A DNA stretch of 33,751 nt from a virus: IMG/VR virus record IMGVR_UViG_3300010885_041216, positions 1 through 33,751 of that record, one strand, 5' to 3'. Position 1 is the stretch's first letter; each line of letters opens with the position of its first letter. Positions 1,687-33,180 of the stretch are shown here, piece by piece. A model generated the notes under the pieces. It saw only the letters and a program-made list of their open reading frames with translations. It did no database searches and was not told the DNA's origin. The translations under genes and the position numbers were made by a program.

Positions 1687-2853
1687 TTAAAACCGTACAT
1701 GATTATCCACTAAATATCTTTTCGAGCCAGTGGCCTTGGGCTTTTCATCAAGCTTATTTGTTGGGATTGAATCAACAAGGCCATTTGGATTGGCCCAATT
1801 TGGCTTGCCCTCGTTTTCCGCACTCTTTGCCCAATAAGGGAATTTCTCGCCCTTATCTTTTTCCCATAAAGCAAATTTTCCATGCTCAACTCTGCCAATG
1901 TAATACTTTTGATTGTAGCCTTGCGCTTCACTGTCGTAATTTAAAACAGCCGTCCACAATTGCCTTGAGCCATCATTTCTGTTTTTCATTGCTGCAACCA
2001 AATTCACCTCTTTGCCATCAAGAGTATATCTTGCAAATGTGATGACCTTTGTTGCGGTCTTTGCAATCTCTGAGCTTCCATGCAAATCATCAAGCGTTGG
2101 AACGTCGGGCCTGTGGTTGTTTCTTTCAAGTTTTCTAATGTGAGACACCAAGATGATTGGCGTGTCGTGATTGCCACTTAAGTTTTTCATGCTTTGACAA
2201 ATTTCCTTGATTGCAAAAGCTTCTTTGTCAGAGTCGAGATTGAAGTAATGCAAATGATCAACCACAATCAACTCGGCATCATTTTTGATATTTAAAAAAA
2301 GCTTCTTAAAGCCATCAATACCAAGTGGCTCATCACGATAGTGCAAAAAAATGTTTTCGTATTTTGAAAGATTGGCAGCCGCCTCTTCAATGAGCTCCGG
2401 GTATTTTTCAGACAAAACACCATTCCAGAAATCCGTGAGGCTTATGTTTGATTTTTGGATTTGCCCGCTTTCAGATTTGCGAAAATAAAGCGAGTAAAAT
2501 TCTTTGTAAATCATCCTGTATTGAATCTCTAATCTCGCGGCCTCAAGAGCAAAAAAGTAAACCTTTTTGCCATCAAGCGCGGCTTGCATTGCAATTGAAA
2601 GTGCAGTTTGCGTTTTGCCAAGGCCAGAGCCGGCAGAAACAACAACAAAGTCGTTTTTATTTATGCCACCGAGGCACTCATCAAGAAAATTAATGCCAAA
2701 TGAGATTCTGTTTTTACCAAGTGCAATCAAAGTTTCATTTACGGTTTTTGGGTCAATCGCTGCGCTCACAAAGCCAGTGCGGTCCACTGACTTGCTGAAT
2801 TCATTTTGGTTGTGATCAAAAAGACTTTCAAAATCTTGATTGTTGTTTTCCAT
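1687..2853 (-). CDS. DnaB-like replicative helicase (RecA-fold ATPase)
   Basis: A 388-residue protein with a RecA-type core. Walker A is AGSGLGKT (74-81), followed by a helix and VYFFALEA (about 98-105), which corresponds to the DnaB FSLEM region. Walker B is LIVVDH (195-200), and SHIRKLERNNHRPDVPTLDDLHGSSEIAKTA matches the DnaB H4 region that ends in a Gly-Ser/Ala-x-Asp-like helix. The N-terminus is short compared with host DnaB (about 470 aa), as is common for phage helicases. It starts immediately after the primase stop (TAAATG), so the pair is translationally coupled and probably forms a phage primosome. Confidence 0.85.
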   Translation of the reverse strand: MENNNQDFESLFDHNQNEFSKSVDRTGFVSAAIDPKTVNETLIALGKNRISFGINFLDECLGGINKNDFVVVSAGSGLGKTQTALSIAMQAALDGKKVYFFALEAARLEIQYRMIYKEFYSLYFRKSESGQIQKSNISLTDFWNGVLSEKYPELIEEAAANLSKYENIFLHYRDEPLGIDGFKKLFLNIKNDAELIVVDHLHYFNLDSDKEAFAIKEICQSMKNLSGNHDTPIILVSHIRKLERNNHRPDVPTLDDLHGSSEIAKTATKVITFARYTLDGKEVNLVAAMKNRNDGSRQLWTAVLNYDSEAQGYNQKYYIGRVEHGKFALWEKDKGEKFPYWAKSAENEGKPNWANPNGLVDSIPTNKLDEKPKATGSKRYLVDNHVRF

Positions 2854-3723
2854 TTACGCCCCCACTTCAGGAATTAGTTTTTTAATTTCGTTGATGCAAA
2901 CTTTTGAGTCATTGCCGTAATACTTCAGCCATTGAAAGATAGTTGGCCCGCCACCGTCCATTGAGCCAATGCGGTTCTCGCTGCAAATGAAAGTCGATGT
3001 GCCTTTGCCATTCACAAAAATGTTTCGCTTGCCTTTTGCTGAAGGCTTGAAAGTAAAAATCTCGCCATTGACTAAATCATGGCCTGAAAAGCGACTGAGT
3101 GCCTCTTGTTGGTCAAACGCATAAAGCCTGTCAAAGAAAGCTTTGCCTTCAATGTTTTCGCTTATGAGAGCTTTTGATTGGCGCTTGTATTCTTTTGGGG
3201 CTTCTAAATCTTTGTAGTAATCAAGCATGTCTTGGCTTGTGTACTTGATTGGATTAAATTCTTTCTTTTCGATCAAAAAAGGATTTGCCGGGTCTTTCAT
3301 GTGGTAAAAGCCTGGCACTCTTAAAAGCCGGCACAAATCCTTTGCGCGCTTATCGCCATTGTAATAAGGCACCAAGCGATTTGCGACAATTGCAGAATAA
3401 TAGCGTTTTGAGATTTCAAAATCTTTGTCATCGCATGCCCAATAAACATGAAAGCCGTTTCTTGTCTCAACAACCATCGTTGGCTTTAAACCTGTTTTGA
3501 TTTTTTGCATTTGCTCCTCTTTGGTGCCCTCGTCAATGTCGATAGCCCATGCATTAATGCCGATAAGGTTTTCAACTTTCCTCTCGTTGGATTTAAAGCT
3601 TTGCACTGTGTGGAATATGCCAAAGCCTCGCTCATTCCATGCTTTCGCATCATTGCGGTTGATTGGCGTTGTGCCTTTGTGATTTGCCTTGTCTGAGTCG
3701 TGTAGTGCGTATGTGTAAACCAT
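2854..3723 (-). CDS. AEP-type primase (PrimPol-like)
   Basis: A 289-residue protein from the ATG at 3723. An upstream ATG at 3819 would overlap the preceding gene by 91 bp, whereas 3723 lies 5 bp after its stop. Features of the archaeo-eukaryotic primase fold are visible: AWAIDID (Asp62, Asp64), the metal site; ETRNGFHVYW with His92; and KDLCRLLRVPGFYHMKDP (about 129-144), the third conserved block. The C-terminal part has a FKPSAKGKRNIFVNGKG stretch with no motif I know. It would synthesise primers for the adjacent DnaB-like helicase. Confidence 0.8.
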   Translation of the reverse strand: MVYTYALHDSDKANHKGTTPINRNDAKAWNERGFGIFHTVQSFKSNERKVENLIGINAWAIDIDEGTKEEQMQKIKTGLKPTMVVETRNGFHVYWACDDKDFEISKRYYSAIVANRLVPYYNGDKRAKDLCRLLRVPGFYHMKDPANPFLIEKKEFNPIKYTSQDMLDYYKDLEAPKEYKRQSKALISENIEGKAFFDRLYAFDQQEALSRFSGHDLVNGEIFTFKPSAKGKRNIFVNGKGTSTFICSENRIGSMDGGGPTIFQWLKYYGNDSKVCINEIKKLIPEVGA

Positions 3724-3728
3724 ATTGA

Positions 3729-4466
3729 TCACGTCACCGGCCCCCAATTTACGTTTCGGAAGTCGATTGTTTTTTTCTTTTCCTGAGTTTTTAACGGATT
3801 CTTTGAACGTGAAAACCAACCAGTCAAAAATGTTCCAACGTTCTTGACGCTCTTGCCAGTCTCATCAAGCCAGAGTGAGGCGTTGCCAATTTCTTCGATT
3901 AAGAAATCTGAATTGTATTTTGAAAGCCAAGAGTCGAGTGTGGCTTGTTTCTTCACTTTGCCAATGAGTGCTTTGCCCTCTTCACTAAGCTTTGAGTGTG
4001 CCCATTCTGGCATTATTAAAACACTGCTACTGTCATGCGTATGTGCGGCTGTAATAATATCTTTATTCTTTATTCTTTTATCTTTTATCTTAGGCGCGCT
4101 AGGTGCGCGCTCAGTGCGCGCGCGTTTTGAATCTCTATCCATAAAAATCAACAAGTTAGGCATTGAGCATCGGTATGTCATCGCCGTCTCATCGAAGGAG
4201 CATAAGCCTAGCATCGCCATAGCATCGAGGTAGCATCGCACCCTCATGTGGTTTGGGTAGCCCAAGCAAGTCATCAAATAAGTCTTATCAAACTCAAAAA
4301 CGCAGTGCTCCTCAGAGAGACTTTCTTCCTTTTTCTTTTCAAGCTTTTCAGCGCAAAGCTCAACAAAGGTCCAGTAACGTCCAACGCCCTCTAAACCAAA
4401 TTTACTTTTGATTGCTTGAATAGATTTGCCACGATGTGAGTCAGTAAAGTGTTTAAAAAATTTCAT
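3729..4466 (-). CDS. Phage replication protein / helicase-loader-like
   Basis: A 245-residue protein. The N-terminus (MKFFKHFTDSHRGKSIQAIKSKFGLEGVGRYWTFVELCAEK) matches the winged-helix start of Lin1244/DnaD-like phage replication proteins. A Lys/Arg-rich linker (about 115-135) follows, and then a C-terminal domain with FLIEEIGNASLWLDETGK and a WFSRSKNP stretch. The family binds origin DNA and helps load the helicase. The position ahead of primase and helicase fits. Its ATG overlaps the stop of the upstream small gene (ATGA). Confidence 0.65.
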   Translation of the reverse strand: MKFFKHFTDSHRGKSIQAIKSKFGLEGVGRYWTFVELCAEKLEKKKEESLSEEHCVFEFDKTYLMTCLGYPNHMRVRCYLDAMAMLGLCSFDETAMTYRCSMPNLLIFMDRDSKRARTERAPSAPKIKDKRIKNKDIITAAHTHDSSSVLIMPEWAHSKLSEEGKALIGKVKKQATLDSWLSKYNSDFLIEEIGNASLWLDETGKSVKNVGTFLTGWFSRSKNPLKTQEKKKTIDFRNVNWGPVT

Positions 4467-4896: not shown

Positions 4897-5349
4897 TTAT
4901 TTTTTTTTAGAAAGAACGCTTTTTGAAAAGGCGCGCAACATTTCATGGCCACCTTGAACTTTACCAAGCTCAGAAATGGCTTCCAAAATATCGAGCGGGA
5001 TTTCAGTTTTTGAAGAGCGACCTTTGCCTGGCTTAATTCTTTCAATCTCGCTTGTCAGGTAGTCTTTAATCTTTTCAAGATTGTCTTTAAGGTCTGCATT
5101 TGCATCAATTTTGATTGGAGCTGTCACTGAGTTTTCGCTCACCAACTCATCAACGCCAACCTTTAAAGCTTTTGCGATGATAACAAGGCGACCAAAGCTT
5201 GGGTTTGTTTGGCCCTTCTCAATTTGAGCAATGCTTGATTGAGTGATGCCAAGCAAATCAGCCAAATCTTTTTGGCTCAATTGCAATCGCTCACGCTTTT
5301 TTGCGATTCTTTCGCCTAATATTAAAAAAATTTTACTTGTTTTTTCCAT
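4897..5349 (-). CDS. XRE-family HTH transcriptional repressor
   Basis: A 150-residue protein with a classic helix-turn-helix of the HTH_3/XRE family at about 12-66: LGERIAKKRERLQLSQKDLADLLG, then ITQSSIAQIEKGQTNPSFGRL and an IAKALKVGVDEL third part. The rest is charged and helical (DNLEKIKDYLTSEIERIKPGKGRSS) and contains no S24 peptidase dyad, so induction would not go through RecA-stimulated self-cleavage. There is no Shine-Dalgarno before the ATG; the base run TTTTTGACG abuts it, so expression may be low or leaderless. Candidate operators flank the gene on both sides. It could be the prophage repressor or a Cro-like factor. Confidence 0.8.
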   Translation of the reverse strand: MEKTSKIFLILGERIAKKRERLQLSQKDLADLLGITQSSIAQIEKGQTNPSFGRLVIIAKALKVGVDELVSENSVTAPIKIDANADLKDNLEKIKDYLTSEIERIKPGKGRSSKTEIPLDILEAISELGKVQGGHEMLRAFSKSVLSKKK

Positions 5350-5430: not shown

Positions 5431-5545
5431 TATAGAGATTTAAATTGTAATCAAAGGCATTTTTCCTTTCTTTTATTATTTTAATACTTTGTGAATACAA
5501 GGTCCACTTATTGCCCATATATAGCAAAGCCGGGGGGTATTGCAA

Positions 5546-6442
5546 ATGAAACAATCAAATATCGTCCAAAAGTCCGGAATACCGGTCAAAACTTTAGAAA
5601 AACAACAGAATCAAAAGAGTGATTTAATCGGCCTCGTTTATGATCTTGAGTCTCAGGCTTATTTTTCTCAAAAAGCTGCAAACGCTTCATTCTTAAAATC
5701 CCTCGGCTCAAATTCACCCGCGAAAGCAAAAGCACTGAGCGAAATTACAAGAAAACCAACGCCTGCAATGCAAATTGGCACCTGTGTTCACACCCTTGTA
5801 TTGGAGCCTGAAGAGTTCGAGAAGCGATATTTGGTGAAAGAGCTGAACCTTAGAACAAACGCCGATAAGGAATTTAAAGCTGAAGCCGAAAAGCAAGGCA
5901 TCAATATCATTGGCGAGGATGATTTTGCGCAAGCAAAAGCCATGCGTGACTCGGTGATGAGCCACAAAGAGGCTCGCGCTTTATTCACTGGCGGGAAATC
6001 AGAAGTCAGCATGTTCTGGACCGACCCAACATCGGGTGCGCCATGCAAAGCAAGAGCCGATTATTTCAATCAAAAGAAACGCGTGATTGCTGACCTTAAA
6101 ACTTGCGATGACGTGAGCAATGAAGGCATAAGCCAATCAATCTCGAAATACTCTTACCACCTTCAAAACGCGCATTATCTCATGGGCGCTCGCCTAATCA
6201 CTGGCATTGATGAAATTGATTTTATTTTTGTCTTTGTTGAAAAGTCACCGCCTTATGAGGTCAGAGTGGGCCGCTTGCCAATGGACGTTGTTTGTTACGC
6301 TGAAGCCGCTTTGAAACCACTTTTACGCCTTTATCATGAGTGCATCACTTCAGGATTTTGGCCAGGGCATGAGCAAAAGATTGAAACCTTTGAGCTCGCG
6401 CCTTGGAAATATAAACAGTTGACCCAATTAGATAATCAATAA
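5546..6442 (+). CDS. RecE-like PD-(D/E)XK exonuclease (PDDEXK_12 / DUF3799 type)
   Basis: A 298-residue protein. The ATG at 5546 has GGGGGG 8 bases upstream; the TTG at 5540 is too close to that site. Motifs of the RecE/PDDEXK_12 nuclease family are in order: MQIGTCVHTLVLEPEEFEKRY (His82), GKSEVSMFW (Glu153), CKARADYF (Asp172), VIADLKTCDD (Asp183, Lys185) and YHLQNAHYL (Gln207, Tyr211). Such enzymes chew back one DNA strand to prepare ends for annealing. The next gene may be its partner, although it is short for a single-strand annealing protein. Confidence 0.8.
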   Translation: MKQSNIVQKSGIPVKTLEKQQNQKSDLIGLVYDLESQAYFSQKAANASFLKSLGSNSPAKAKALSEITRKPTPAMQIGTCVHTLVLEPEEFEKRYLVKELNLRTNADKEFKAEAEKQGINIIGEDDFAQAKAMRDSVMSHKEARALFTGGKSEVSMFWTDPTSGAPCKARADYFNQKKRVIADLKTCDDVSNEGISQSISKYSYHLQNAHYLMGARLITGIDEIDFIFVFVEKSPPYEVRVGRLPMDVVCYAEAALKPLLRLYHECITSGFWPGHEQKIETFELAPWKYKQLTQLDNQ

Positions 6443-6824: not shown

Positions 6825-7034
6825 ATGTTGGAAAGCATTAATCCAATCAGCAAAAGAGTTCTTTTTGATATTTTTGAAACGGCTGAAATGATTGGCAGAT
6901 CGCCAAAGGCTGTCAGGCGTTTGATTGAAAAAAGGCTCATCAATCCAGTAAGGCATGACAGGCGCATTTTCTTCAACATACAAGAAATAAACCGGTTTGC
7001 TCAAATTGAGCCTGAAGCTGAGGCATGCGAATGA
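6825..7034 (+). CDS. Excisionase / MerR-like HTH_17 DNA-binding protein
   Basis: A 69-residue protein with the winged-helix pattern of Xis/HTH_17 proteins: LFDIFETAEMIGRSPKAVRRLIEKRLINPVRHDRRIFFNIQEINRFA. The second helix and recognition helix are clear, and the RRIFF wing is typical. Xis-like proteins bend DNA at att sites or act as small repressors. The integrase lies 1.6 kb downstream on the same strand. The stop overlaps the next start (ATGA). Confidence 0.65.
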   Translation: MLESINPISKRVLFDIFETAEMIGRSPKAVRRLIEKRLINPVRHDRRIFFNIQEINRFAQIEPEAEACE

Positions 7035-7243
7035 AAACAATCAATTTAAGACAAGAGACAATCGAATTTCAGCGCTTGAACGTAATGCGCGCCATTATTC
7101 ACTCAAACAATAACAAGGCTGAAGCCGCTCGAAAGCTAGGCCTTAATCGTACAACGTTGATTGAAATGATTAAGCGCTTTGACCTTGCTTATCTTATGGA
7201 GCAACCAAGAAAAAGAGGCGATTCAAATGATAACTCTTGGTGA
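7031..7243 (+). CDS. Fis-type HTH protein
   Basis: A 70-residue protein from the ATG at 7031, which overlaps the previous stop; an ATG at 7025 is in the same frame. The C-terminal part (MRAIIHSNNNKAEAARKLGLNRTTLIEMIKRF) is a textbook Fis/NtrC C-terminal helix-turn-helix (HTH_8). No AAA+ or receiver domain is present. It could act as a nucleoid-type or att accessory factor. It is coupled to the HTH_17 gene before it. Confidence 0.65.
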   Translation: MKTINLRQETIEFQRLNVMRAIIHSNNNKAEAARKLGLNRTTLIEMIKRFDLAYLMEQPRKRGDSNDNSW

Positions 7244-7340
7244 AATTTTTCTTTGGTTTGGGGTGGCAATAGTGGTCGGCTTTGCATTTGTTTTAGGATG
7301 TTGCATTGCCGCGCTATTGTTACCAAGCAAAAAGAATTGA
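7227..7340 (+). CDS. 37-residue single-span membrane peptide
   Basis: A short gene in another frame that overlaps the end of the Fis-like gene by 17 bp. AGAGG lies about 9 bases before its ATG. The peptide starts MITLGEIFLWFGVAIVVGFAF and continues with a hydrophobic segment (VLGCCIAALLL) before the basic tail PSKKN. The single long hydrophobic stretch and positive C-terminus suggest an inner-membrane peptide with the tail in the cytoplasm. Function unknown; superinfection exclusion or lysis control are possibilities only. Confidence 0.45.
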   Translation: MITLGEIFLWFGVAIVVGFAFVLGCCIAALLLPSKKN

Positions 7341-7525
7341 TCCGGTGGCCTGAGACAGAGTCAATTTCACACCGGCAATAAAGAGCCCCGGATTAATACC
7401 GACAAGCTCTTTCGCCCCGCTAGTTGAAAACTTCCGTTTTTTAATTAGTGGGGCATTACAAAAAAGAGTGGCGGCATTGCAATAACAAATGAACCTTTGT
7501 TTTGGTTTCCTTTGCCGCCATTTTT
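7341..7525 (+). ncRNA. Candidate structured noncoding RNA with four hairpins
   Basis: No credible gene lies here, but four successive stem-loops can be drawn. SL1 pairs CCGGTG (7342-7347) with CACCGG (7370-7375). SL2 pairs AAAGAGC (7380-7386) with GCTCTTT (7406-7412). SL3 pairs GCCCCGCTAGTT (7414-7425) with AATTAGTGGGGC (7443-7454), extended by GAAAAC/GTTTTT around a TTCC tetraloop. SL4 pairs TGGCGGCA (7469-7476) with TGCCGCCA (7513-7520), encloses AACAAA/TTTGTT (7484-7489, 7496-7501), and is followed by TTTTT like an intrinsic terminator. The strand is inferred from that T run and from plus-strand neighbours. Confidence 0.5.
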
Positions 7526-7545
7526 AAAACAGTGGTGAATGTTTA

Positions 7546-7746
7546 ATGTTTGAGTTTCTAAACTTAAAAGCGAGTAAATTAAGAATGTACTTTACCGCAT
7601 CATTTTCGCCTGAAGAAATTGAGGAAATGATTAAGAGCGAACCGCATGAGCTCAGTTGTCTCATTTACATTTGCACTTGTGAAAACAAGGCACTAAAAGA
7701 AAGTCAAAAAACTGGCAGAAAAACGCCAAGCAATTCAGCAATTTAA
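7546..7746 (+). CDS. Hypothetical small protein
   Basis: A 66-residue reading frame with no domain I know (FSPEEIEEMIKSEPHELSCLIYICTCENKALKESQ). The upstream GTGGTGA is a weak ribosome site. It is plausible because it fills the space between the structured stretch and the 21-bp repeats on the same strand, and its composition is protein-like, but a non-functional frame cannot be excluded. Confidence 0.4.
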   Translation: MFEFLNLKASKLRMYFTASFSPEEIEEMIKSEPHELSCLIYICTCENKALKESQKTGRKTPSNSAI

Positions 7747-7780
7747 CAACTTCATTTTAATTCAATTCAAATTTATTCCG

Positions 7781-7873
7781 ATTTAAATATAAGTGTTGCT
7801 TATTTAAATATAAGTGTTGCTTATTTAAATATAAGTGTTGCTTATTTAAATATAAGTGTTGCTTATTTAAATA
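7781..7873. repeat. 21-bp tandem repeat array (4.4 copies)
   Basis: Four identical 21-bp units start at 7781, 7802, 7823 and 7844, followed by a partial 9-bp unit at 7865. Each contains the dyad ATAAG-N5-CTTAT and the palindrome ATTTAAAT, and on the other strand reads AATAAGCAA as in the repressor region. The spacing of two helical turns puts every site on one face of the helix. Likely operators or iterons upstream of the gene at 7895. Confidence 0.8.
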
Positions 7874-7875
7874 CC

Positions 7876-7881
7876 TATAAT
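7876..7881 (+). promoter_or_regulatory. Candidate -10 box (TATAAT)
   Basis: A perfect TATAAT stands 3 bp past the partial repeat and 14 bp before the preferred start codon at 7895. No good -35 hexamer is at 16-18 bp; TTGCTT in the last repeat is only 11 bp away. It is likely that proteins bound to the repeats would control this promoter. Leader length would be very short. Confidence 0.4.
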
Positions 7882-7894
7882 ATAAAATGTGTTT

Positions 7895-8323
7895 ATGAGT
7901 GCCAAGAGCAACCATGAGCAAATAAAAGACACCGATTGCAACGCTGAAAATGCTATCTGCAACGCTGAAAATGCTATCTGCAACGATGAAAATATCGAAA
8001 GCCATGATGAGCACTCAAAGATTGAGGCTCTTTTAATCCTCGTTGAAAGCCTCTTAAAACACATCAACAACAAAAAGCCATGCATTGCCCTCATGCTGCT
8101 TCTCGCTTCGTGTGGCAACAATCTGAGCCCACCACAATCAAAAGCCAACTCAATCTCTTGCGACGTTTTGCGCGACCTTAAAGAGCGCGGAATAAGCCAA
8201 TCACTCACCTATACTGAGCTTCAGGAAATCCAAGCCAGGGTTTATTCAAACGCCTACAAAGAGCTTTCAGGCCAAACTGGCGAGGCCGTCAAGCTCAACC
8301 CACCACTTCCTTGCGTGCTTTAG
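7895..8323 (+). CDS. Lipoprotein-like protein downstream of the repeat array
   Basis: A 142-residue protein from the ATG at 7895; a GTG at 7889 is in frame. The N-terminal part carries a sevenfold-residue repeat (CNAENAI twice, then CNDEN) and a charged helix. A hydrophobic stretch with a lipobox-like end (CIALMLLLASC followed by GNN) is internal, near residue 60-73, rather than at the N-terminus. The C-terminal part has no motif I recognise. A possible reading is a shorter lipoprotein starting inside, but I see no good start codon. It sits between the operator-like array and a terminator, so it may be a lysogen-expressed gene, for example in exclusion; that is inference. Confidence 0.5.
   Translation: MSAKSNHEQIKDTDCNAENAICNAENAICNDENIESHDEHSKIEALLILVESLLKHINNKKPCIALMLLLASCGNNLSPPQSKANSISCDVLRDLKERGISQSLTYTELQEIQARVYSNAYKELSGQTGEAVKLNPPLPCVL
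7937..7993 (+). repeat. 21-bp coding tandem repeat (2.7 copies)
   Basis: Units start at 7937, 7958 and 7979 (the last partial, one mismatch) and encode the heptapeptide repeat CNAENAI. The period is the same 21 bp as the noncoding array 70 bp upstream, but the sequence is different. Confidence 0.7.
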
Positions 8324-9872: not shown

Positions 9873-9948
9873 GACCCCATAGCTCAACAGGATAGAGCAC
9901 CACTTTCCTAAAGTGGAAATCCCCGTTCAAGTCGGGGTGGGGTCGCCA
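9873..9948 (+). tRNA. tRNA-Arg (anticodon CCT)
   Basis: A full 76-nt cloverleaf. Acceptor GACCCCA pairs with TGGGGTC (9938-9944), D stem GCTC/GAGC, anticodon stem CCACT/AGTGG with loop TTCCTAA (anticodon 9907-9909), T stem CCCCG/CGGGG with TTCAAGT loop, discriminator G and encoded CCA. All stems pair without mismatch, so it looks functional. It overlaps the last 22 bp of the endolysin gene on the opposite strand. A complete tRNA in a phage attachment region is unusual, since most carry only the 3' half. Confidence 0.95.
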
Positions 9949-10935: not shown

Positions 10936-13899
10936 TTAACATCCTGAGTACACGCTAATTGACCCTGCTTCAAGCTTCACAACCGCTGAAGTTCCACCGT
11001 TAAAGCGCTCATTGTGAGGGTATAGTTGCACGTTTGGAAGGTTTGAGCTAATTGTACCAATCTCAGTTAAATCACTAATCAAGCCCGTAATTTGATAGTG
11101 AAGCTCACTTGAGCCAGCCGCATTGTAAAAATCAACTTTGAAAATATTATCGGTAGCGGAAATTGAATAAAGGTTTAACAATGTGACTTTTGTTGTTGCG
11201 CCTGGGGTAGCGCCATTGTGATAAATGTAAAACTTCGTATCACCCGCTCCAGAGTCATGACCAAAGCAAAAAAAGTTAGTCAATGAATTCATTAATGGGT
11301 TGTTATTTGATGAGCCGTTGATTGCTGTTGCTGAGGATGAGTTATTCATGCCACAAAAATGCCTTGCTCCCGCCACCGTTGCGGCATCGTTAATCATGAA
11401 AATCGTACTAAATCGCAACCCCCCACCAACACTGAATGAAGTTGAAGCACCACGAAAGCCTGTTGTTGATCCCGCTGTTGAAGTTGTGTTTAAAGTCACA
11501 TGCGGAATTTTACCAATGACTGAAGCACTACTGTATGGGGCAAGGGCAATCGTGCCGGTTGAGCCTGTGGTCATGCCGTTCAAGCCTGACAATATTGATG
11601 AGCCCATCGTCACTCGGATTGAATAGTTCATTTCATTTCCGTCTAGTTTAAAGCGTGTCAGCTCATTAAGCTGCGTCCCGAGCTTGGTTTTAATCGTTGC
11701 GGTCGTCTCGTCGCCTGTATTGGTGCCTGAAAGGTTAGAACCTAAAACAGTTCCACTTGCTTTCACGTTTCCGTTTACATCTAAAAGCTCTGAAGGTGTA
11801 TCGGTTCCAATCCCTACTCTACCGTTTGCTAAAATGGTAAGAAGATTTGTCGTCCAGTTTCTAAACTGATAAAGCGGTCGAGTCACAACCGCCGCTAAAA
11901 CACCTAAAGTTGTTTGCGTTTGCGCTCTGAACACGTTGATAGGATTTGTTCCGGTGTCATCCGTGTTGAAAATGAAACCCTGATACAAAGACGCAGAGTT
12001 GATGTTTCCGTTTGCTTGCGTGTGCGCAAGTGAAGGAACAAATGTTCCGTCCGTTGTCGCGGCGTTGCCGATATTCAAGTTTGCGGTTGAATCCGAAACT
12101 GAGAATGAAGCGATTGCCTCTGCGGTTGAAGGTATCGCAGTGGTTTTCACGCTCAATGTCGCACTGCCTGCGGTTGGAATAGTATTGATTCCGACTTTTC
12201 CAGAGCTAGTGATTCTCATTCGCTCAGTACGAGTAGCGCCTTCACCTGTTGCAAAAGTAATTGCTTGAGGTACTGCACTTGTAGAAACAGCCCCGTCTAC
12301 TGAAAAAGTAATTCCTGCCGTTGTGATATTAGTTGTGCCATCATGACCAGCGCCGACGATAGATAAAGTCTGATCACCATTTTGTACTGCTGTAGGTGCG
12401 TCAAGAGTATTGCGAGAGCGAGTAGATTTGAAAACACCTCGATGCCCAGAAGTATCACTAGAAGTGATAATGTTAAATCCGGGGGCCGTAGATTCAGCGC
12501 TCAAAGTTATAAAATCACTGGTATAAAGTGTTGAGCTAACTGTTTTATCAACAGATGAAACTTGAAGCGGTGAAACTCTATTGGTAACACCAATTCCCAA
12601 ACTTCCGGTCACTGTGTCACCGGTCTTTAAAACATAGCGAGCATCACCTCTAGTATCGTTGTGATATTGAGTGTGATCATCTGCATTGAGATTGCTTAGT
12701 AAGCTATGATCACTAACGCCACTTGCACCCGCTGGGCCTTGCGGGCCAGTCGCTCCGGTTGCGCCGGTTGCACCTTGTGGACCTGCGGGGCCAACGTCAC
12801 CTTGAATGCCTTGCGGGCCTGTTGCGCCAGTTGGTCCTTGAATCCCTTGGGGTCCAGTGTTTCCAATTGGTCCTTGCGAGCCAGTGTCTCCGGTATCGCC
12901 TTTCAAACCTTGAATGCCTTGAATGCCCTGCGGGCCTGCCGGTCCAGTTAAACCAATCGGGCCTTGCGGTCCAATGTCGCCAGTGTCTCCTTTTAGGCCT
13001 TGAATTCCTTGCGGGCCTTGTGGGCCTGTCAGACCAATTTCACCCTGTAAACCTTGAGGCCCAACATCTCCTTGAGGCCCTTGAATACCTTGCAAGCCTT
13101 GTGGCCCTTGAGTTCCAACATCACCTTGCAAACCTTGAATGCCTTGAGGTCCTTGTGGCCCCGGCTCGCCTTGAATACCTTGCGGACCGGTTGCACCTTG
13201 AGCACCTTGCGGGCCCATCGGACCAACATCGCCAGTGTCGCCCTTTGGTCCTTGCGAACCTGCCGGGCCGGTGAGCCCTTGTGCGCCCTGCGGACCGGTA
13301 TCGCCAACGTCGCCTTTAATACCTTGAGGCCCCTGTAAACCTTGCGGACCTTGGGGGCCTGTTTCTCCCTGAATTCCTTGAGGCCCAATGTCTCCTTGCA
13401 CTCCTTGAGGGCCTTGCGGTCCGGTTGAGCCAGTTAATCCGATTGGCCCCTGTGAACCGGTTAAACCAGTGTCACCTTTTGGCCCCTGTGGTCCAGTTGC
13501 ACCGGTATCGCCTTTTAATCCTTGTAAGCCTTGCAGGCCTGTCGCTCCGGTGTCGCCTTTAATTCCTTGAGAGCCTTGTGGGCCTTGAGGCCCTGTTGCG
13601 CCGGTCGCTCCGGGCAAGCCTTGAGCACCGGTTGCGCCAGTGTCGCCCTTAATTCCCTGCGGACCTTGAGGGCCAATTGCTCCCGCTGGGCCGATCTCTC
13701 CTTGATCACCTTTTAAACCTTGCGGACCTTGAGCGCCGGTTGCTCCAGTTTCGCCGGTGTCACCCTTATCGCCTTTTGGGCCTGGCACCGCGCTTGGCAA
13801 GAGGTTCAAATTTACATCATCATTTGGAGCGTTAATTGAAACGCTGATTTCAACGCTGTCATTGCTTGGCTCGCTAATGTTTACAATAATGTCACTCAT
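10936..13899 (-). CDS. Collagen-like tail fibre protein
   Basis: A 987-residue protein. After a short N-terminal virion-attachment segment (about 1-38), residues about 39-395 are uninterrupted Gly-X-Y repeats dominated by GPQGPQG and GDTGATG, which form a collagen triple helix. [25 protein letters not shown] then resembles linkers in phage fibres, followed by repeats with the [18 protein letters not shown] motif typical of trimeric fibres. The C-terminal 250 residues would be the receptor-binding tip. It likely binds the host surface. Start overlaps the upstream stop (ATGA). Confidence 0.85.
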
Positions 13900-30216: not shown

Positions 30217-33180
30217 TCAGAGCCAGTTTGATTTTCGCCTTGGCTGAGGCCTTTGTGGTTGAGTTGGTGCCGTTGGTTGCACCTTATTGGCAACGTTTTG
30301 TGTATTTAATGGCACCGGCACGCTTGAGGGTGTGAGATGAGCCCACTGCGATTCATTGAACCGATCAAGGCCAACAACATGCGCAGCCGCTCTTGCGTAA
30401 ACATGTAAATCAAGTGTTTCGTTTCGCTCGCGTACCTTTTCCCAAAAAAACACCCTGTTTCCGTTCACCACTTTTGAAGTCACTTGCTCTGCGGTTAATT
30501 GTTTAAAATAATCCTCGTCATATTCTGGAAAGTGGCAAAAGCAAGCCGGGTATTCTTTGCCGTCTGTTGGCGCTTGTAGCTTAAGCCAAGAATAAAGCTC
30601 TGACTTGATGATTGAGCTCCCCACGGTCCAAACCTTTGCGCCTCTTGAAATACGTTTACCGCCAGCGTGAACGTCAACGGCCGTTGGCTGATTAACCATT
30701 GCTGGCGAATTATCACGGCCCTTTACCACCATTACGCGAGTTGGTGATTGGCGACGACTCCAATTGTAAACGGCTTGCGTATTAAAACCTGAGTCAATGG
30801 CCAGCATTTTGATTTCAAGTGCTCTGCCATCATCTTTAAAAAATTGCTCAGATAAAATTTCATCAAGCTTTTGAAATGGCTCTGAGGTGTCCTGAGAAGT
30901 GTCGCCAAAAAATTGGTGGCGAATGATCGACCAACGTTGCTTATCTTTCCCCCAACCAATCACCTCGCACTCGATTCGATCTTTTTGAACGTCGCAACCT
31001 GCCGTTAAAAACAAAACAGGCGCTGGCACGCTTCCAATTTCGTAATGCTCGCGCTGTAAGTAAAGCTTTGACCAATCAGGCGAATCGCCCTCTTTTGCCT
31101 TCCATGTTTCTCCCATTGCGGTGTTTACCCAAACCTTAAGCCGCTCAGGGTCGCTTTTTGCTTCGATGAAATCCTTAACCACTTGCTCCCACCTGCGCCA
31201 TGGCGAGTAAAGCTCATTAATGTGAAAGCCAGCGGTGCCGGTGAATGGCTTTTTTGCCTTCCATTTTCCGCCAATCAAAAGCTCGTGCTTGTTATTGTCT
31301 TGAAAAGTTTTCTGGCATTCAGCGCACTCATAGCGAACATTGATTGGTTGCTCTTCGCCTTCCCACTTGATGCGTGAAAATTCAAGCGTTTGAAAGTGAT
31401 TGCAATGTGGGCAAGCAATTTGAAACTCTCGTTGATCGCTTTCATTGTAGCTTTTCTCAATTCTGCAAACACCTGAAATAGTTGGTGTGCTCACTTCAAT
31501 GAATTTGCGATTGAAAAATGTTGTTGCACGCTTTTGGGCAAGCTTAACGGGGTCACCCTCAGTGCCAGCGCTTAAAGGATAGCGAGAAATTTCGTCAGCC
31601 AACACCACTCTCATTGGCCTTGATGCAAGAGAGGCCGGTGAATTTGCGCCAGCTAGTGAAATGTGGCCGCCTGGGAATTTCTTTTGAAGCAAAGTGTTTC
31701 CGCCATCGCGCGATTTTACGTCGTTTACTTTGTCGCGCAATACTTCAGTGTCGCGAATCATTGGCGCGAGCCTGTCTTTTGAGTACGCTTGAGCCATGTC
31801 AAGAGTTGGCTGCAAAACTAGCATCGGGCTTGGGTCTTGATGGATAAAATAGCCAATGCAATTATTGATGAGCTCAGTGTTGTGCGTTGGTATCATTTCT
31901 TTACCGCAAAGATAAAGTTTACTTTTGCTTGCAACTTGAATGCACTTTACTGGCACGCTTTTGACCAGGTTTATTTCTCTGATCATTCTGATTTTTGAGC
32001 GGTTATTTTGCTTTTCAGGTGGCACCATTAACTTAAGTTTTCTTTTAAGTTTAAAAACAGGCTGATTTTTATTTGGAAATAAATAAATTCTAAACCGATC
32101 TTGCGCATTGTAGCGATTGCCGTTTTTGTAATATGCGCTTTTTCCTTGTTTGACTGTGGCCTTAATTCCAAGCGAGCGAATAAGTTCAAGGCATGAATTC
32201 ATGAGCGCACGATTAACGCCAACAAGTTCGCAATGACCTTCCTTATTTATTGTTCCATCCGTATCCATTAAGCCTTGCAAAAGTTCGAACCTTTGCTCGT
32301 ATGATGCGCGCAAGTATTTCTCAGGAATGTGTTTGTTATTAATTAAGCCAAGTTCACTTAAATGAGTTTTAAAGCTTTTTTGATTTGAGCTTCTTGCAAT
32401 GCTACTAGGCTCAATCGTTACGTTAATCACGTTTAAATTTCGCTTATCTCGATTGCAAACAAAAATCGGGTAACCGTCATGCGCAATTGCTTCAGCAATT
32501 TCAAAATCATCTTTGTGAAATATCATTGAATTGTTCACGCTTATTCCATCGCCAAGCCAAGCGCCTAGCGTGTAAGGTGAAATCGGCAAGTTTCTCTCAG
32601 GCAATTGAATTGCTTTTGCAATTGGAATTGAAAAAGTTGTTTTGCCTTTGGTCTTTTGATGCTCGAAAATATATTTTGCGGTTCTGTCTTGAGTCTTGAT
32701 TGTGCTTGCGATTCTTTCATCAACGCGCCAAATATGTTCTGCATCGCAAACGATTTTTGAATCATCGCTGAAAACGAATTCAAAACACTCGCGCTCATTC
32801 ATGACCTCAGTTGCAAATGTTACGAGCGTTTTATTTCCTTCCTCGTCAAAAACATAATCGCCAGCCCTGAGCTCGCCCATCGTGGTCCAACCGTAAGGCG
32901 TCGGTATTGGCGTGTCGATGGCGAGGGCTTTACCGATCTGCGCGCTTGATTTGATCACCACGCGCTCAACAAACCGATTGCCAATCGAATCCATGATTTC
33001 GCGCATGTATGGTGTGCGGTCGGTACGCCATAGGCCAGGCTCCGCGCTTGACTCCGGTGAAAGCTTTCTAAACTTGTCGGCCCATTCGCTAATCGTCAGC
33101 GGTGGTGGCGGCGAGAAGAGCCTCATCGTCCGATTCGTCAAACTCTGTAATGCTTGCAGTTGTGTTGCCTCTTGGCTCAT
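30217..33180 (-). CDS. Terminase large subunit (GpA family) interrupted by an intein
   Basis: A 987-residue precursor; without the 350-residue intein it is 637 residues, close to lambda gpA (641). The exteins match the GpA family: N-terminal LTISEWADKFRKLSPESS, P-loop segment VVIKSSAQIGK joined to TELINN, Walker B VVLADE (525-530), zinc-type pairs CPHC (590-593) and CAEC (619-622), and the nuclease Asp in TAGCDVQKDRIE (730). It packages DNA and cuts cos. It overlaps terS by 92 bp; GGGGAG lies about 10 bases before the ATG. The intein must splice out for activity. Confidence 0.9.
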   Translation of the reverse strand: MSQEATQLQALQSLTNRTMRLFSPPPPLTISEWADKFRKLSPESSAEPGLWRTDRTPYMREIMDSIGNRFVERVVIKSSAQIGKALAIDTPIPTPYGWTTMGELRAGDYVFDEEGNKTLVTFATEVMNERECFEFVFSDDSKIVCDAEHIWRVDERIASTIKTQDRTAKYIFEHQKTKGKTTFSIPIAKAIQLPERNLPISPYTLGAWLGDGISVNNSMIFHKDDFEIAEAIAHDGYPIFVCNRDKRNLNVINVTIEPSSIARSSNQKSFKTHLSELGLINNKHIPEKYLRASYEQRFELLQGLMDTDGTINKEGHCELVGVNRALMNSCLELIRSLGIKATVKQGKSAYYKNGNRYNAQDRFRIYLFPNKNQPVFKLKRKLKLMVPPEKQNNRSKIRMIREINLVKSVPVKCIQVASKSKLYLCGKEMIPTHNTELINNCIGYFIHQDPSPMLVLQPTLDMAQAYSKDRLAPMIRDTEVLRDKVNDVKSRDGGNTLLQKKFPGGHISLAGANSPASLASRPMRVVLADEISRYPLSAGTEGDPVKLAQKRATTFFNRKFIEVSTPTISGVCRIEKSYNESDQREFQIACPHCNHFQTLEFSRIKWEGEEQPINVRYECAECQKTFQDNNKHELLIGGKWKAKKPFTGTAGFHINELYSPWRRWEQVVKDFIEAKSDPERLKVWVNTAMGETWKAKEGDSPDWSKLYLQREHYEIGSVPAPVLFLTAGCDVQKDRIECEVIGWGKDKQRWSIIRHQFFGDTSQDTSEPFQKLDEILSEQFFKDDGRALEIKMLAIDSGFNTQAVYNWSRRQSPTRVMVVKGRDNSPAMVNQPTAVDVHAGGKRISRGAKVWTVGSSIIKSELYSWLKLQAPTDGKEYPACFCHFPEYDEDYFKQLTAEQVTSKVVNGNRVFFWEKVRERNETLDLHVYARAAAHVVGLDRFNESQWAHLTPSSVPVPLNTQNVANKVQPTAPTQPQRPQPRRKSNWL
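31879..32928 (-). mobile_element. Class 3-type intein with LAGLIDADG endonuclease in TerL
   Basis: Residues 85-434 of the TerL precursor, beginning ALAIDTPIPTPYGWTT and ending MIPTHN before Thr435. Residue 1 is Ala, not Cys/Ser. The class 3 signature is present: Trp151 after the block B His149, Cys413 in block F (VKCIQVA) and Thr432 in the C-terminal PTHN. The endonuclease blocks are LGAWLGDG (about 205-212) and LLQGLMDTDG (about 300-309). Insertion lies exactly between Lys and Thr of the P-loop (QIGK/TE), a site used by inteins of other terminases. Both splicing ends look intact. Confidence 0.9.

Follow-up and report, generated by a model that had tools for sequence, protein, structure and literature searches.

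The hairpins examined here occupy the gap that separates two small genes in a temperate phage not previously characterised, and they raise the question of whether this DNA specifies an RNA of its own or only part of a longer transcript. The source is a 33,751-nt stretch of the record IMGVR_UViG_3300010885_041216, referred to below as the window. An earlier note, made from the sequence alone, had described four consecutive hairpins in a gene-free stretch at 7341–7525 and proposed a defined RNA of about 185 nt. The hairpins follow a rightward operon that encodes, in order, an exonuclease VIII-like protein (exo), a 116-aa protein without relatives, an excisionase-like (Xis-like) HTH protein and a Fis-like HTH protein. 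Downstream of them are a 66-aa ORF, an array of 21-bp repeats, a 142-aa ORF, an integrase gene and a tRNA-Arg(CCT) gene. The coordinates of these features are collected in Table 1.

All four hairpins are present on the + strand (HP1–HP4), and their folding is not a matter of chance composition. The segment 7341–7525 folds with −67 kcal/mol on this strand, compared with −42 ± 4.2 kcal/mol for dinucleotide-shuffled sequences (z −6.0), and none of 200 shuffles folds as well. The opposite strand of the same segment gives z −3.0. Among 748 segments of 185 nt covering both strands of the whole window, this segment has the top z-score. Thus, the view that such density exceeds chance expectation holds, while the description of the DNA as AT-rich does not, the segment having 44% GC, about the phage average. 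No good reading frame was found in 7341–7545, in agreement with its description as gene-free.

The structure is, however, larger than first described. A further and longer hairpin, HP0, directly abuts the segment on its upstream side and extends the structure by ~90 nt; no other hairpin of the row is as stable. It had been overlooked because 7227–7340 was taken as a gene for a 37-aa peptide, so that the structure appeared to begin at 7341. The full row (7250–7525) consists of five hairpins separated by gaps of 0, 0, 1 and 9 nt and occupies the interval between the stop of the Fis-like gene (7243) and the ATG of the 66-aa ORF. On the + strand, 7244–7530 folds with −103.6 kcal/mol (z −6.74), compared with z −2.75 on the − strand. 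We conclude that an RNA structure on the + strand is present that is not explained by chance.

Table 1. Positions and properties of the hairpins and of other features of the window.
Feature	Position	Strand	Details
RepB-type primase beside DnaB-like helicase	1687–3819	−	replication pair
Repressor-like gene	4897–5349		divergent
Exonuclease VIII-like gene	5540–6442	+	DUF3799, 3.5e-36; PHROG exonuclease VIII, 5.9e-81; opens the rightward operon
HTH_17/excisionase-like (Xis-like) protein	6825–7034	+	69 aa; Pfam HTH_17, 2e-07; PHROG excisionase/regulator, 8.4e-06
Fis-like HTH protein	7025–7243	+	72 aa; Pfam HTH_8, 2.9e-07
Proposed 37-aa hydrophobic ORF	7227–7340	+	overlaps the Fis-like gene; codon score −0.06; AGAGG ahead of the ATG
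HP0	7249–7336	+	long imperfect hairpin within the proposed 37-aa ORF; −35.3 kcal/mol, z −4.62
HP1	7336–7379	+	stem ATTG..CCGGTG/CACCGG CAAT, large loop; −10.9 kcal/mol, z −1.14
HP2	7380–7412	+	stem AAAGAGC/GCTCTTT with inner CGG/CCG stem; −9.4 kcal/mol, z −3.34
HP3	7414–7454	+	17–18-bp stem with three G-U pairs; −24.2 kcal/mol, z −6.91
HP4	7464–7525	+	13-bp stem AAGAGTGGCGGCA/TGCCGCCATTTTT, A-tract before, T5 at end; −23.5 kcal/mol, z −3.91
66-aa ORF	7546–7746	+	codon score 0.15
21-bp direct-repeat array	7781–7873		four perfect head-to-tail copies (ATTTAAATATAAGTGTTGCTT); perfect repeats at 7786–7866
tRNA-Arg(CCT)	9873–9948		complete, encoded CCA; ~15 bp behind integrase
Collagen-like repeat protein	10936–13899	−	long GPQGPQG repeats; probable tail fibre
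Terminase large subunit	30217–33180	−	intein-like insert with LAGLIDADG endonuclease domain

The individual hairpins differ in how far they stand out. HP0, HP2, HP3 and HP4 each fold significantly better than their shuffles. HP1 alone falls within the shuffled range, although it is retained in the minimum free energy structure of the whole region; the 37-aa ORF ends in a stop codon that overlaps the base of this hairpin. HP3 had been described as a stem of about 18 pairs capped by TTCC. The length is correct, but the stem includes three G-U pairs and has two equally stable forms, one of 18 pairs with the TTCC cap and a single bulged T, and the other of 17 pairs with a 7-nt loop. On the other strand, HP3 reaches only −15.8 kcal/mol. 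HP4 has a GGCGGC/GCCGCC core and an interrupted inner part of ~36 nt.

The codon score of the 37-aa ORF is ~2.5 sd below that of true phage genes (coding mean 0.32, sd 0.15) and 0.7 sd above that of off-frame segments (mean −0.17, sd 0.16), on a measure that judges hydrophobic peptides badly, and its coding status is doubtful. Only one in 500 synonymous versions of this ORF folds as well as HP0; the structure is thus unlikely to be a by-product of codon choice, even if the ORF is translated. The score of the 66-aa ORF lies between the coding and off-frame distributions, and the protein matched no Pfam family.

These results bear on the possibility that the row has no function beyond an ordinary terminator at HP4. 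The folding of HP1 within the shuffled range, and the failure to find relatives in which covariation might be seen, would agree with such a reading, but the top z-score of the window, the separate significance of HP0, HP2 and HP3 and the rarity of synonymous sequences that match HP0 make it quite improbable. A survey of 80 other phage loci (685 kb) allows the density to be put in proportion: four of 13,482 segments exceed the 185-nt core in folding beyond the expectation for their G+C content. Such hairpin density is therefore rare, occurring roughly once per 150 kb, but it is not unique.

Several observations concern the nature of the folded molecule. The stems of HP3 (three G-U pairs) and of the HP4 base (two G-U pairs) would carry C-A mismatches on the opposite strand. 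The overall share of G-U pairs (6 of 61, 10%) is ordinary compared with 12% in the window and does not constitute separate evidence. On the reverse strand of HP4, the GGCGGC stem is followed a few nucleotides later by T6, with a z-score of only −1.5. When the region is folded as single-stranded DNA, the z-scores of the two strands are −4.8 and −4.2, compared with −6.7 and −2.8 as RNA. The latter difference, together with T5 at the end of HP4, points to a transcript of the + strand and not to a DNA palindrome.

A single-stranded DNA element was nevertheless considered, in which the hairpins would be priming sites of a replication origin, the 21-bp repeats iterons and the RepB-primase-like protein their user, in the style of RSF1010. 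The origin of RSF1010 has two ssi hairpin priming sites on opposite strands. The phage encodes proteins with a RepB_primase domain (4.1e-10) and similarity to DnaB-like helicases (7.4e-24), the four repeats are 250 bp away, and single-stranded DNA of the region folds well on both strands. However, folding is far more strand-biased as RNA than as DNA, which fits an RNA; the T5 tail would serve no purpose in DNA; two opposed priming sites are a different layout from a series of five hairpins; and no clean switch in GC skew is seen. We consider an origin very improbable.

The repeats themselves look like either a regulator-binding array or origin iterons. They had been described as a repressor-type array adjoining the hairpins, along with regulatory genes. 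The Fis-like gene, the final well-supported gene upstream, does adjoin the row, while the array begins ~250 bp to the right of the hairpin segment and the repressor-like gene is ~2 kb to the left. A rightward TATAAT (7876–7881), without a −35 box, directly follows the array, and a leftward promoter-like site (TTGGCA-17-TATTAT, 7905 to 7877, 10 of 12 matches) points into it. The 142-aa ORF contains in-frame 21-bp repeats at 7937–7993 (TGCAACGCTGAAAATGCTATC, 2–3 copies).

The last hairpin agrees with its earlier description as terminator-like. HP4 has 13 pairs and a G+C-rich stem followed by a T run at its base, as is characteristic of intrinsic (Rho-independent) terminators, and is probably such a terminator with an interrupted inner part. 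It is missing from the list of a consensus terminator scan because the scan allows loops of up to 8 nt. HP0 begins 6 nt past the stop of the Fis-like gene and the following hairpins are almost contiguous, an arrangement that corresponds to a hairpin-cluster termination unit. Clusters of hairpins, three on average, located soon past stop codons have been described as a common intrinsic termination unit (PMC8355165).

A search of 6893–7545 on the + strand found no sigma-70-like promoter site. With none seen ahead of the row, which directly follows the exo/Xis-like/Fis-like operon in the same direction, the simplest reading is that the rightward early operon ends here in a structured 3′ tail with a terminator. 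We assign this reading a probability of about one half. Transcription would start at a promoter upstream of exo and end in an untranslated tail of ~280 nt with five back-to-back hairpins, where HP4 and T5 would halt most of it. The upstream hairpins may help by holding the nascent RNA in a local fold, and the hairpins may also shield the 3′ end of the mRNA from exonucleases. The 66-aa ORF starts 20 nt past T5 of HP4, too near for a promoter to fit between, so that its expression from this side requires read-through, which would yield low levels and could serve to control the ORF. Two features do not fit an operon tail as readily: an ordinary terminator needs only one hairpin, whereas a run of five such stable, contiguous hairpins is rarely seen, and the inner part of HP4 is long and interrupted, with no more than T5 behind the stem.

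With no promoter-like site found, ~90 nt of additional structure and a position directly behind the operon, the proposal of a defined RNA of ~185 nt is not supported. Either a regulatory RNA in its own right or an attenuator may be present instead. The former would be a trans-acting phage sRNA, made from an unrecognised promoter of its own or cut from the operon transcript, for example at HP3, with its stability provided by the hairpins and its 3′ end set by HP4. The strong strand-specific structure and the terminator-like end are in line with this, and both phage-derived and 3′-UTR-derived sRNAs are known (PMC12197685, PMC13250501). Besides lacking a recognisable promoter, such an sRNA would have loops that pair with phage translation starts no better than shuffled loops do, and no relatives were found, hence there is no sign of conservation. 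We regard it as unlikely.

HP4 would belong to the leader of the 66-aa ORF, from which it is separated by too short a gap to contain a promoter, and this position could also suit an attenuator coupled to translation. Pairing is feasible between a segment of HP0 (~7300–7312) and the 5′ arm of HP4 (~7471–7483), and the resulting helix may serve as an antiterminator. If a ribosome stalled near the start of the 37-aa ORF, the HP0 segment would be freed and transcription would read through; a ribosome reaching the stop codon would have no such effect. The alternative helix has −23.3 kcal/mol, compared with −22.7 kcal/mol for the HP4 duplex, and is reached by 6 of 400 and 8 of 400 shuffles, values (1.5–2%) that are uncorrected for the many alternatives inspected. 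In calculations that block the 5′ arm of HP0, the antiterminator accounts for 58–77% of the ensemble; when the stop-codon region is blocked, it accounts for 0%. Against this, the helix was picked after many alternatives had been viewed, the 37-aa ORF scores as noncoding and has no run of one regulatory codon, and the partner segments are separated by ~160 nt that include three hairpins. The HP0–HP4 pairing is a lead, not a result, and we judge an attenuator distinctly unlikely.

Adjacent hairpins in a phage early operon could also act in cis to let RNA polymerase pass later terminators, as seen in the put RNA of phage HK022 (PMC9378689). The put element is ~70 nt long, has two hairpins and is located just past, or ~270 nt past, an early promoter (PMC9378689). 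The present row is at the far end of its operon and itself ends in a terminator-like hairpin, and a put-like role is the least probable of the readings considered.

Searches for relatives in phage records, viral contigs and bacterial genomes returned no comparable element. No Rfam family matched the hairpin row above its gathering threshold, permissive scans stayed far below threshold, and the only Rfam match in the window is a tRNA. A blastn search of 7000–7900 against phages and tblastn searches of phages with four neighbouring proteins gave no match. No related loci were found through the exo, 116-aa, integrase and Fis-like proteins, and among 80 portal relatives and 80 exo relatives neither the neighbouring small genes nor similar DNA was seen. 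A covariance model of the row (R1) gave a convincing match only to itself in the searched loci and none in 141 genomes from an order that may include the host; as the model is built from a single sequence, an empty result says little. Two sets of candidates were rejected: two of the strongest segments from the 80-locus survey, both in exo-bearing phages (L163, L158), bear no relation to the row and match no Rfam family, and ten contigs with the DNA pattern of HP2 match that pattern alone. For the portal, terminase and head genes, relatives have only ~30–46% identity.

The host lineage can be approached through the tRNA-Arg(CCT), which lies beside the integrase gene and is probably part of attP. 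Exact tRNA patterns gave no match in genome and viral collections. A relaxed search found a near-identical tRNA-Arg(CCT) in 3 of 369 genomes of one phylum, which hints at the host lineage; integrase and exo relatives in that phylum are absent or distant.

Other parts of the phage have features of their own. An 11-nt direct repeat at the ends of the contig (1–11 and 33741–33751), with late genes running through the ends, points to a nearly complete genome that is circularly permuted. The replication pair of primase and helicase has only remote relatives in phage records. The intein-like insert in the terminase large subunit apparently begins with Ala (GKA/LAIDTPIPTPYGW region) and ends with HN/T. 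The terminase of one viral contig (L021) aligns to this subunit over its full length with 40% identity and also seems to carry an intein-like insert.

As an operon tail only, the row would represent a well-built case of hairpin-cluster termination in a phage to which nothing closely related is known from the collections. As a stable RNA or an attenuator, it would add a new regulatory RNA to the interval that separates recombination genes from integrase in a temperate phage, where excision and integration are decided. A broader proposal, to which we give limited weight, is that a ~280-nt, five-hairpin RNA family, so far undescribed, acts as a ribosome-read attenuator or a stable RNA to control passage from the early operon to the side of the 66-aa ORF and integrase in temperate phages of a poorly sampled bacterial lineage.

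The row can be compared with several known systems. As in origins of the RSF1010 type, a RepB-type primase, a helicase and iteron-like repeats are all present in the phage, where the origin is putative; the ssi sites form a pair on opposite strands, whereas this row of hairpins favours one strand as RNA. It resembles trp-leader-type attenuators in having a small ORF, mutually exclusive helices and a terminator ahead of an ORF, but differs in its doubtful leader ORF, the lack of a regulatory codon run, the very long spacing and the weak evidence for pairing. With phage sRNAs derived or processed from 3′-UTRs, it shares a structured 3′ end and a terminator-like hairpin and could be released as a stable RNA, although here the discrete RNA would be a candidate only and no target was found. 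Like put of HK022, it consists of adjacent hairpins in a phage early transcript; put is an antiterminator with two hairpins in ~70 nt, while the present row has five in ~280 nt and is located 1.7 kb into the operon. Hairpin-cluster terminators (PMC8355165) likewise have several adjacent hairpins on the same strand after the last gene of an operon, with about three hairpins compared with five contiguous ones here, where T5 follows the last hairpin and an ORF begins 20 nt further on.
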